Assembly: GCA_031270665.1 (NCBI GenBank)
Contig: JAISXD010000079.1
Coordinates: forward strand, 1 to 64,000
DNA from: Tannerellaceae bacterium
Lineage (GTDB): Bacteria > Bacteroidota > Bacteroidia > Bacteroidales > Tannerellaceae
DNA: 64,000 nt
Reading direction: 5' to 3'
The first letter of the stretch is position 1. Each line of letters opens with the position of its first letter. Made by a program: the position numbers and the translations under genes. The notes under the pieces were generated by a model. That model was not told where the DNA came from. It was given only the letters and a program-made list of their open reading frames with translations, and did no database searches. Positions 45,628-49,030 of the stretch are shown piece after piece.

Positions 45628-46338
45628 TTACCGGAGCGTTTCCGGTTTCCCCACGTCTGTCACTTGGACGCCGGGAGGAAAATAAGCCTGGATGTTCGTT
45701 CTGGCGCAAACGGACAGGTAGAAGTTGATGATGGAAAACTTGCCTGTCCATTCTTCCATCCATTCAAACAGCCGGGGCGAGATAACATGTACGCCGCCAA
45801 AGGCATATCCGGCGTATTTCTGCGGGTCGAGATCGGAGAAGAACGACTTAATTTCTCCCGTATCGCGGTTATGCCAGGCGCACAGCTTGTTGTCTTTGTC
45901 AAATAACAGGTGGCGGGAGGTGTCTCTTTTGCTTACCAGCAGGGTGGCAAGCGGGCCTGTGGCTACATGATGATTGTAAAAAGCCTTCAAATCCACGTTC
46001 GAGCGTATATCCACATTGTGCACCAGGAAAGGTTCATCGTCTCCGGCAAGGAACCTGGCGGCGTGCTTGATACCTCCCCCCGTATCCAATAAATAATCGC
46101 GTTCGTCTGAAATCTTGATTTTGACGCCGAAATTATCGTTTGCCACCAGGAAGTCGATAATTTGCCCTCCCAAATGATGTATATTGATAACAATCTCACG
46201 GAAGCCGGCAGCTTTTAATTTCAGAATCAGATGCTCCAGCATGGGTTTGCCGCCAATGGGCACCAATGCTTTGGGGATGTTGTCGGTTACCGGTTTGAGG
46301 CGCGTGCCCAAACCCGCAGCAAGAATCATTGCTTTCAT
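45628..46338 (-). CDS. Sugar-1-phosphate nucleotidyltransferase (MurU-like)
   Basis: MKAMILAAGLGTRLKPVTDNIPKALVPIGGKPMLEH. Confidence 0.9.
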   Translation of the reverse strand: MKAMILAAGLGTRLKPVTDNIPKALVPIGGKPMLEHLILKLKAAGFREIVINIHHLGGQIIDFLVANDNFGVKIKISDERDYLLDTGGGIKHAARFLAGDDEPFLVHNVDIRSNVDLKAFYNHHVATGPLATLLVSKRDTSRHLLFDKDNKLCAWHNRDTGEIKSFFSDLDPQKYAGYAFGGVHVISPRLFEWMEEWTGKFSIINFYLSVCARTNIQAYFPPGVQVTDVGKPETLR

Positions 46339-47765
46339 AATACGGCGTCAAAGATTTGTTCTATATTCTGTTCCCGGTGTGTCAGGTGGATTTTCACGCC
46401 AAATGCACTGTGCAGGTGTTCCGCCAGACGTTGTGCCGAATACACCGAACGGTGTCGGCCCCCCGTACACCCGAAACTAACCATCAGGTTTGTAAATCCA
46501 CGGTCTAAATAGCGTTTTACGCAAGCGTCTACAATCGTTTGTACATGTTCAAGGAAGCGGGTTATTTCGCCGTCGTCTTCAAGGAAGCGCACCACCGGTT
46601 CGTCCAGCCCCGTAAAATGGTTGTAACGTTCATACTTGCCCGGGTTGTTGATCGCCCGGCAATCAAACACAAAGCCTCCCCCGTTGCCGGCAGGGTCGTT
46701 AGGTATCCCTTTCTTATAGGCGAAACTTACGATTTTCACCTCCAGCATCCGTCTTTGGATATCGTCCGAAAACTGTTTCAGCCGGGTCAACGCGCGAAGG
46801 ACAGAGCAGAGGTACGGATATTCCGGGAAATCTTCCCGTAACAGCCGGCGCAGGTTCTCAATGGCGAAAGGAACGCTTTGTATGAAATGGGGCTTCTTTT
46901 CAAAGTATCCCCTGAAGCCGTAAGCGCCCAATACCTGAAGGGTGCGGAAAAGGACGAAATGGCGCAGGCGGCGAAGAAAATCCGCTTCGTCAACAGGCAG
47001 ATACCGGCTTAAGGCCGTCATATACCCGGCGAGCAATTCCCTCTTCAAACCTTCGGGATAATTGGCCTTGGCCTGCCATAAGAAAGAGGCGATATCGTAA
47101 TAAACAGGGCCTTTCCGCCCGCCCTGGAAATCGATAAACCACGGTTCGCCCTCTTTAATCATTACATTGCGCGACTGGAAATCACGATAGAGGAACGTAT
47201 CGGAAGGCGTACATAACAGCGCATCGCTCAGTTGCTGGAAATCGTCTTCCAGCCTGTCTTCCTGAAAATCCATGCCGGTAGCTTTCAGGAAGCAGTATTT
47301 AAAGTAATTCAGGTCCCAAAGGATTGAACGCCGGTTGAACGCCGGCTGGGGATAGCAGTATGAAAAATCGAAATCATGCGCCCCGGCTACCTGGACAGAA
47401 GGCAACAGCTCAATTGTCTTATGCAGCAAACGGCGTTCGCTTTCATCGAATACGCCGCTTTTGCGTCCTTTTTCAATGGCGTCGAAGAGTAAGGTATCTC
47501 CCAAATCTTCCTGTAAATAAAAGGATTTGTCGCCGGTCCAATAATATACCTGGGGAACAGGCAGGCCTTTGCGGCGGAAATGGCCGGCCATATAGATAAA
47601 GGCGCCGTTTTCTTCCTGCGACGTACCGCTTACCCCGATTAACGTTTGGCTTCCCGTGATGCGGAAATAACGGCGGTTGGAACCCGATGAGGGCAACTCA
47701 TTTATCTCCCTGGCCCGGCTGCCGGTATAGGAATAATAGATTTTATGTAATTCGTCTATGATCAT
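46335..47765 (-). CDS. APH/AmgK-like phosphotransferase fused to RapZ C-terminal domain
   Basis: N-terminal kinase (VPQVYYWTGDKSFYLQEDLGDTLL; FLYRDFQSRNVMIKEGEPWFIDFQGGRKGPVYYDIASFL); C-terminal GFVFDCRAINNPGKYERYNHFTGLDEPV...FGCTGGRHRSVYSAQRLAEHL. Confidence 0.9.
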   Translation of the reverse strand: MIIDELHKIYYSYTGSRAREINELPSSGSNRRYFRITGSQTLIGVSGTSQEENGAFIYMAGHFRRKGLPVPQVYYWTGDKSFYLQEDLGDTLLFDAIEKGRKSGVFDESERRLLHKTIELLPSVQVAGAHDFDFSYCYPQPAFNRRSILWDLNYFKYCFLKATGMDFQEDRLEDDFQQLSDALLCTPSDTFLYRDFQSRNVMIKEGEPWFIDFQGGRKGPVYYDIASFLWQAKANYPEGLKRELLAGYMTALSRYLPVDEADFLRRLRHFVLFRTLQVLGAYGFRGYFEKKPHFIQSVPFAIENLRRLLREDFPEYPYLCSVLRALTRLKQFSDDIQRRMLEVKIVSFAYKKGIPNDPAGNGGGFVFDCRAINNPGKYERYNHFTGLDEPVVRFLEDDGEITRFLEHVQTIVDACVKRYLDRGFTNLMVSFGCTGGRHRSVYSAQRLAEHLHSAFGVKIHLTHREQNIEQIFDAVL

Positions 47766-47793: not shown

Positions 47794-47833
47794 AAAAAAA
47801 CCGGTGTACAAGAAGTACGCCGGTTTATATAAG
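47794..47833. repeat. 40-bp direct repeat (terminator-like hairpin), copy 1
   Basis: aaaaaaaccggtgtacaagaagtacgccggtttatataag; identical to 48991-49030; stem AAACCGGtGTAC/GTACgCCGGTTT. Confidence 0.95.
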
Positions 47834-47926: not shown

Positions 47927-48247
47927 TTATTCTTTCTCTTTCTCCTTGTTATTGAGAGGATAAAAATAGTCGACTACTAAAGTGAAAATAAAAGAAAAAA
48001 CACCTCCTGCTAAGGCTGTAAATAAATATGGAATAGAAAACCCACTCCACAACAAGTAAATTAACATGCACGAAATAAGAATATATAAAAGTCTAAGAAC
48101 AGTTGGAATACTATACCAGGAAAAAACCATTACAGAAGAAAAAGAAAACAACATAACAGGTTCAAAGTCCCAATTTGTTCCAAATCTCACAAACAGTATC
48201 ACAATGAATACGATAAAAGAATAACTAAAAAATATATTTCTCCTCAT
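47927..48247 (-). CDS. Small multi-TM membrane protein, candidate immunity/accessory protein of the GG-peptide cassette
   Basis: 106 aa, about 3-4 hydrophobic segments, lysine/glutamate-rich tail, downstream of and co-oriented with the two GG peptides. Confidence 0.65.
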   Translation of the reverse strand: MRRNIFFSYSFIVFIVILFVRFGTNWDFEPVMLFSFSSVMVFSWYSIPTVLRLLYILISCMLIYLLWSGFSIPYLFTALAGGVFSFIFTLVVDYFYPLNNKEKEKE

Positions 48248-48274
48248 GATGCCTATGATAATTAATTAAATACA

Positions 48275-48305
48275 AAAAGGTTGAGATTAATCTACTCAAC
48301 CTTTT
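48275..48305 (-). terminator. Rho-independent terminator/attenuator after the GG-peptide genes
   Basis: AAAAGGTTGAG(48275-48285)/CTCAACCTTTT(48295-48305), perfect 11-bp stem; on the - strand the stem ends in a T run (CCTTTTTGTATTT). Confidence 0.85.
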
Positions 48306-48321
48306 GATACGATTTATATTA

Positions 48322-48483
48322 CTAATGCCCCATACATGTAGAATAATATTGAGCATCCGTCTGAACAAAATATTCAGAAGAAGCACAAAGCATTCCAATG
48401 AAATATGATAACCAACTGCCACCATTAACTGATTCTATTTCTGAATAGTTCAGTTCTTCAATTTTAGATTCAACAGATTCCAT
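48322..48483 (-). CDS. Double-glycine-leader peptide A (bacteriocin-like)
   Basis: MESVESKIEELNYSEIESVNGG|SWLSYFIGMLCASSEYFVQTDAQYYSTCMGH; leader LNYSEIESVNGG fits LSxxELxxIxGG; GMLCA is a GxxxA motif. Confidence 0.75.
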   Translation of the reverse strand: MESVESKIEELNYSEIESVNGGSWLSYFIGMLCASSEYFVQTDAQYYSTCMGH

Positions 48484-48496
48484 ACATATATTATTG

Positions 48497-48682
48497 TTAC
48501 ATACAACTGTTAAAAGCATTATAGCCATCACGAAAATCACCCGTAGCTCCTCTATCAAGCATTTCGCCAACAGCTATTCCTATGAATAACCAAACAATGG
48601 GAGCAAGTCCTCCATTTGTTTCGTTCATTTCCATTTCATTCATTTTTTCTACTCCATAAGTAGCCGGATTCAAATTTCCCAT
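48497..48682 (-). CDS. Double-glycine-leader peptide B (bacteriocin-like)
   Basis: MGNLNPATYGVEKMNEMEMNETNGG|LAPIVWLFIGIAVGEMLDRGATGDFRDGYNAFNSCM; leader MNEMEMNETNGG has the -12/-8/-7/-4 pattern; GIAVG is a GxxxG motif. Confidence 0.75.
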   Translation of the reverse strand: MGNLNPATYGVEKMNEMEMNETNGGLAPIVWLFIGIAVGEMLDRGATGDFRDGYNAFNSCM

Positions 48683-48818
48683 AAATATAAAAATCAATTT
48701 GTCATCTACTCTTTCAAAGCTTTTCGATACCCGCTTCCCTGTATGTAAGGCTATCAGGCGATCTGTAAAAGTAATCAATTTTAACAACTTGCAAGTATTT
48801 CTGTTTCTCTTACAAAAG

Positions 48819-48853
48819 CAAAAGTACGACCGGTTTGTGCAATGACATTGCAC
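48819..48853 (-). promoter_or_regulatory. Putative promoter/operator of the GG-peptide operon
   Basis: On - strand: palindrome GTGCAAT-GTC-ATTGCAC (48837-48853), then 10 bp, then -7 box TACTTTTG (48819-48826). Confidence 0.5.
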
Positions 48854-48990
48854 GGAAGGAATTATTTTTAATGTTTCCGGAAAAAATATTCTTTCTTTCC
48901 GAATTGGCAGATACGGTCTTTTGAGTCGATTCATACTTTTCTTGCGCCGACAAGGCGTCGTAATAAGGCATAGTATAAAGTTGATGATAT

Positions 48991-49030
48991 AAAAAAACCG
49001 GTGTACAAGAAGTACGCCGGTTTATATAAG
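48991..49030. repeat. 40-bp direct repeat (terminator-like hairpin), copy 2
   Basis: Identical to 47794-47833; directly downstream of the second gdhA. Confidence 0.95.

Follow-up and report, generated by a model that had tools for sequence, protein, structure and literature searches.

A candidate two-peptide bacteriocin cassette of class IIb type in a Tannerellaceae genome

RESULTS

In the window, as we call the whole 64,000-nucleotide stretch of Tannerellaceae DNA analyzed here, two tandem genes encode small peptides with double-glycine (GG) leaders, A and B, and a gene for a small membrane protein lies downstream of them. We consider it probable that this cassette encodes a two-peptide bacteriocin resembling those of class IIb, together with a membrane immunity protein. 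A toxin is the best-supported reading because A matches a bacteriocin family model, the A-B pair is kept in relatives, the cores carry GxxxG-like motifs, a gene for a protein with four transmembrane (TM) helices is at hand and, in one relative, the pair lies at an exporter-side locus. The peptide genes are as follows.

48497..48682, minus strand: peptide A precursor, ATG start, 61 aa; the 25-aa leader is encoded at 48608-48682
48500-48607, minus strand: peptide A core, LAPIVWLFIGIAVGEMLDRGATGDFRDGYNAFNSCM
48322..48483, minus strand: peptide B precursor, ATG start, 53 aa; the 22-aa leader is encoded at 48418-48483
48325-48417, minus strand: peptide B core, SWLSYFIGMLCASSEYFVQTDAQYYSTCMGH

The stop codon of A and the ATG of B are separated by 13 bp, and in this, as in the strand, position and size of the two genes, the preliminary description proved accurate. 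It had also read a GG-leader pattern in both peptides, and every element of that pattern was found: M at -12, E at -8 and M at -7 in leader A, L, E and I at the same positions in leader B, and NGG at the end of each. The GxxxG and GxxxA motifs it had named are likewise where it placed them, GIAVG in core A and GMLCA in core B. Across the window and its relatives, the motifs are GIAVG, GLAFG and GIIIS in the A cores and GMLCA and GYIMG in the B cores. The locus thus has two adjacent genes for different small GG-leader peptides, with GxxxG or GxxxG-like motifs in the cores, as in class IIb. When the 64 kb was scanned in six frames for a GG-leader pattern with a short tail behind it, A and B were the sole matches; simulated Markov-1 sequence with the same dinucleotide content (n = 60) gave a mean of 0.4 matches, and an adjacent same-strand pair arose in 0 of 60. 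Both window cores have a net charge of -2, with one cysteine in A and two in B. The AlphaFold2 model of A, of low confidence (pLDDT 59), suggests a helix at residues 27-42.

Profile searches separated the two peptides. The preliminary description had pointed to models of the lactobin A/cerein 7B type as a check, and the answer was divided: A scored 26.5 bits against TIGR03949 (bact_IIb_cerein), the NCBIfam model for this class IIb family, and passed its cut-off of 21.5, whereas B, at 14.1 bits, fell below that cut-off and is therefore not a member. Against the lactococcin G/enterocin 1071 families (NF038034 and NF038035; curated cut-off, 37), A gave 13.1 bits with NF038035 and B gave no match; B was above the cut-off of no family. 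No Pfam family reached its cut-off with A, with B or with the membrane protein (a DUF2759 match of 16.1 bits lay under its own cut-off), and searches of solved structures returned no match. Some Bacteroidales peptides are already above the TIGR03949 cut-off, in 12 of 395 genomes.

Besides the window, full-length relatives of A were found only in Tannerellaceae bacterium Ct408_bin127 (G010) and Parabacteroides sp. Marseille-P3160 (G020), with 42% and 54% identity to the window peptide; the corresponding values for B are 38% and 30%. In both genomes A is followed by B on the same strand, the two genes being 27 and 29 bp apart. Lack of conservation of either ORF among relatives, which the preliminary description had named as grounds for giving up the pair, is thus not what we saw. 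Conserved residues (W, L, G, E, DR, DF and G) run through core A, and identity between A and its two relatives at codon positions 1, 2 and 3 is 0.55/0.70/0.38 and 0.63/0.73/0.46, which fits a coding sequence under selection. The codon pattern of B, compared with that in G010 (0.45/0.70/0.57), is not clear-cut, since identity at position 3 (0.57) exceeds that at position 1 (0.45). The A core has a net charge of -2 in the window, G010 and G020, as does the B core in the window and G010; B of G020 is neutral and has only an AxxxG-type match to the motif. The G020 pair directly adjoins an HTH gene, a C39 ABC exporter, HlyD and a two-component system.

Comparable arrangements occur farther afield. 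In G051 (locus L126, G051:C179, 561-1517), the same palindrome as lies upstream of A in the window is followed by a GG pair with GxxxG motifs and then by a 109-aa TM protein; this pair matched the lactococcin G-beta and G-alpha models at E values of 4e-5 and 2.6e-4 (23.7 and 21 bits, under the cut-off). In G340, from another Bacteroidales family, an exporter, an HTH gene and a GG pair occur in that order, and both peptides are above the TIGR03949 cut-off. The G340 locus (L088, G340:C20, 3-2717) consists of the end of a C39-type exporter gene, a small HTH gene and two tandem TIGR03949 peptides, and it also holds small membrane proteins and CPBP-like proteins.

Upstream of A lies a putative promoter of a kind that recurs among such cassettes.

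48837..48853, minus strand: putative palindromic operator GTGCAAT-GTC-ATTGCAC, found in 8 of 125 family genomes
48819..48826, minus strand: TACTTTTG, a Bacteroidetes -7 promoter element of the form TAnnTTTG, separated from the palindrome by 10 bp

The layout here, GTGCAATGTCATTGCAC, 10 bp and TACTTTTG, is an instance of a general form common to the cassettes, GTGCAATnnnATTGCAC-N10-TAnnTTTG, in which TAnnTTTG is the Bacteroidetes -7 element. The eight genomes with the exact palindrome are mostly those with GG-peptide cassettes, and TAnnTTTG stands exactly 10 bp behind the palindrome at 10 of 12 cassette-type sites (among the 12, those on G010 C27 and C73 are contig ends of identical sequence and may be one locus). 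GG-peptide genes lie behind such promoters in the window, G020, G048, G012, G016 and G051; other genes so placed include those for an orphan membrane protein in G012 and, in G010, for a retropepsin-like protein and a DUF3267 membrane protein. Matches to the A-type leader occur in 6 of the 8 palindrome genomes versus 10 of 125 overall (P = 1e-6), and all three genomes with a cognate HlyD carry the palindrome (P = 3e-4), both P values ignoring shared ancestry. A palindrome in G114, inside a coding gene and with no -7 element, was rejected as a cassette promoter and treated as chance. DUF3267 putative membrane zincins are found downstream of the palindromic promoter at two loci, L055 (G016:C37, 6087-6620) and L054 (G010:C148, 5933-6460), and these genes may represent another immunity type.

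One promoter common to several cassettes would also suit a different role, in which A and B are secreted pheromones that induce a peptide regulon through the two-component system at the exporter. GG-leader peptides act as pheromones in some bacteria, and sensor kinase genes, accompanied by response regulators wherever enough of the region was read, lie beside the exporter in G020, G048, G052 and G016. However, the promoter stays the same from cassette to cassette whereas the cores differ, A matches a bacteriocin model, and a tandem pair whose cores, 31-36 aa long, carry a hydrophobic stretch with GxxxG and which has a four-TM neighbor suits a two-peptide toxin better. We therefore regard signaling as less favored than a toxin and, taken by itself, as rather unlikely.

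Two features follow the peptide genes.

48270..48310, minus strand: terminator-like hairpin between B and the candidate immunity gene, -15.3 kcal/mol, z -4.8
47927..48247, minus strand: candidate immunity protein, 106 aa, four predicted membrane helices (hydropathy and AlphaFold2)

The 106-aa gene sits 74 bp downstream of B, and AlphaFold2 places the helices of its product at residues 2-23, 29-42, 47-68 and 72-105 (mean pLDDT, 66); a fold search with this model returned nothing below E = 1. In the window, G010, G020 and G051, the GG pair is followed by a four-TM protein of 103-113 aa, and in G363 a similar protein of 113 aa lies within the same small cluster. Given proteins of the same size and topology after other GG pairs, the 106-aa protein is likely the immunity protein, a role assigned by position, size and topology only. 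By sequence, these proteins fall into two groups. To the first belong the 106-aa protein, a relative in G012 (29% identity, E = 2.7e-11) and, as a weak relative, the 109-aa protein that comes right after the GG pair of G051; the four-TM proteins of G010 and G020 (106-109 aa) and that of G363 make up the second. An hhalign comparison detected no homology between the two groups (probability 1.4%), and we therefore call them alike in size and topology only. LagC, the lactococcin G immunity protein, is 110 aa long with at least four predicted TM domains, and class IIb immunity proteins are dissimilar in sequence (PMC6957408). Hairpins occupy the corresponding position in G020 and G051. Because the window hairpin separates B from the membrane protein, coexpression is not certain, and the third gene may be expressed at a lower level.

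The G012 relative stands directly behind the same palindromic promoter with no peptide gene (L056, G012:C67, 2655-3092), making it a candidate orphan immunity-like gene, that is, an immunity-only cassette. This bears on the idea that A and B act on the producer population, causing self-lysis, rather than on competitors. The precedent is the Naps of Neisseria, bacteriocin-like cationic peptides that have no detectable antimicrobial activity and promote autolysis (PMC11798529). In contrast to Naps, A and B are acidic, and both the four-TM neighbor and the cassettes that hold only immunity speak for protection against a toxin; we consider self-lysis very improbable.

On sequence grounds, the cassette is an insertion, and its surroundings carry the following marks.

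47794..47833, minus strand: 40-bp direct repeat, copy 1, a terminator hairpin at the cassette end, -15.5 kcal/mol
48991..49030, minus strand: 40-bp direct repeat, copy 2, a terminator hairpin after the glutamate dehydrogenase gene
48897..48965, minus strand: remnant of a TolC-type outer-membrane factor, from its C-terminal part (tblastn to G016)
48787..48897, minus strand: remnant of a small HTH regulator gene, from its 3' end, with the promoter embedded inside (tblastn to G016)

The cassette sits between genes for glutamate dehydrogenase and an APH-RapZ_C phosphotransferase, which are 150-300 bp apart in the same-genus genomes G004, G007 and G010 and 1,296 bp apart in the window. The GC content of the insert is 32.8%, against 42.6% for the window, and the two repeat copies, 100% identical, flank the insert and occur nowhere else in the window. 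The TolC relic is 91% identical over 23 aa to residues 362-384 of the G016 TolC (E = 3e-7); the HTH relic, interrupted by stops, is a weaker match, to residues 59-94 of the G016 HTH protein (E = 0.027). In G016 the intact order is HlyD-C39-TolC-HTH-peptide, and the window relics keep the same order. The simplest inference is that exporter loci of this kind are the source from which cassettes are copied, and that the promoter goes along with them. The phosphotransferase gene (46335-47765) encodes an APH-type enzyme fused to a RapZ C-terminal domain and adjoins a nucleotidyltransferase-like gene (45628-46338). A modified peptide (RiPP) was set aside on the flanking genes, glutamate dehydrogenase and APH-RapZ_C, which are not modification enzymes.

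No exporter came to light in the window, in keeping with the preliminary description: it holds no Peptidase_C39 match, and none appears in the ORF list read from 42 to 55 kb. The corollary drawn at the time, that a C39 exporter must lie elsewhere in the genome, fared less well. A Peptidase_C39 profile search of the organism's own assembly, which is 58% complete, found no intact exporter; the sole match is a truncated 121-aa frame on contig 49 (L017, G000:C49, 3400-3765). That frame is inside a 12-kb contig and is followed by short frames resembling transposase remnants (putative). Cognate HlyD and HTH genes are also absent from the 58%-complete assembly. Given this assembly, secretion in the window organism is something that we infer. 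Sister loci of relatives encode the C39 ABC protein, HlyD and TolC. In G010, which is 93% complete, the pair is present with no cognate HlyD or HTH gene, and there is a different full-length C39 exporter, making export in trans plausible in that organism. Of the secreted two-peptide toxin or signal proposed in the preliminary description, then, the toxin is best supported, by the conserved pair and the match of A, and an intact C39 exporter is the part that did not emerge. The membrane-protein gene, the shared promoter and the insertion were absent from that description. The absence of such an exporter, with that of the cognate HlyD and HTH genes, from the available 58% of the genome and the state of G010 weigh against a toxin, as do the failure of B to pass any family cut-off, the acidic cores, the hairpin before the third gene and the lack of detectable homology between the two groups of candidate immunity proteins.

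A cassette cut off from its exporter might instead be decaying, serve mainly for immunity or be a nonsecreted relic. The TolC and HTH remnants upstream would fit this, as would the truncated C39 frame in an assembly with no intact exporter and the G012 orphan homologue under the same promoter. However, none of the three ORFs is disrupted, nor is the promoter, the codon-position conservation of A fits selection, 42% of the genome is missing from the assembly, and G010 keeps the same exporter-less pair. We judge decay or an immunity-only role quite unlikely.

DISCUSSION

Returning to the two-peptide bacteriocin as the preferred reading, we imagine that a promoter-bearing cassette was acquired horizontally and that a regulator would activate its palindromic promoter. 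A and B would then be produced with their GG leaders attached, to be cut after GG and secreted by an exporter of the C39-peptidase ABC/HlyD/TolC type whose genes lie elsewhere. The cores may pair via helices with GxxxG-like motifs and, acting in synergy, could damage the envelope of related bacteria, with the 106-aa four-TM protein guarding the producer.

More tentatively, the window cassette may belong to a modular Bacteroidales family of acidic two-peptide, class IIb-like bacteriocins, built as promoter-peptide-peptide-immunity cassettes and inserted at scattered sites. One regulator would act on all of them via the GTGCAATnnnATTGCAC promoter, the exporter would be shared in trans, and orphan immunity cassettes would be part of the regulon; we hold this scheme as possible and no firmer than that. 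The common promoter provides a simple handle for locating further cassettes and probing the regulon switch. If the peptides are active, the range of class IIb bacteriocins would come to include a dominant gut order; the cassettes would also bring candidate dedicated immunity genes, which are missing for bacteroidetocins, and could serve as narrow-spectrum tools against Bacteroidales.

In the open-access literature we found no two-peptide system in Bacteroidales, which is not proof of absence, and no paper on bacteriocins of termite-gut Tannerellaceae. Bacteroidetocins are named as the known Bacteroidales class II bacteriocins (PMC10352776, PMC6671954). They are GG-leader peptides with a linked ABC exporter bearing a double-glycine peptidase domain (Coyne et al. 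2019, PMC6671954); they are single class IIa-like peptides with leaders of 15-16 aa, no immunity gene was found for them, and the two that are characterized have four cysteines (PMC6671954). The window cassette, in contrast, has two peptides, leaders of 22-25 aa, at most two cysteines per peptide and a candidate immunity gene, and neither A nor B is a single class IIa-like peptide with four cysteines. With class II microcins, such as colicin V, which use PCAT-MFP-TolC export, it has the GG leader in common, and the loci of relatives encode C39 ABC, HlyD and TolC; however, the window cassette has two peptides, is not enterobacterial and showed no sequence relation to them in our searches.

The closest comparison is with class IIb. 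Systems of that class need both peptides, at about 1:1, to be fully active, and they have one membrane immunity protein encoded together with the pair and a dedicated C39 ABC exporter. Cores of that class are typically cationic, though this is not strictly defining, whereas A and B are both at -2. It is chiefly in this acidity that they depart from the Gram-positive class, and it may mean that in Gram-negative envelopes they have another target or are taken up by another route. The window cassette further differs in its Gram-negative host, in a B peptide under every family cut-off, in having no exporter linked to it in this genome and in a promoter that lies within the remains of an HTH gene. 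What it shares with class IIb systems is the tandem GG-leader pair, the GxxxG-like motifs and the adjacent multi-TM candidate immunity protein of about 110 aa.
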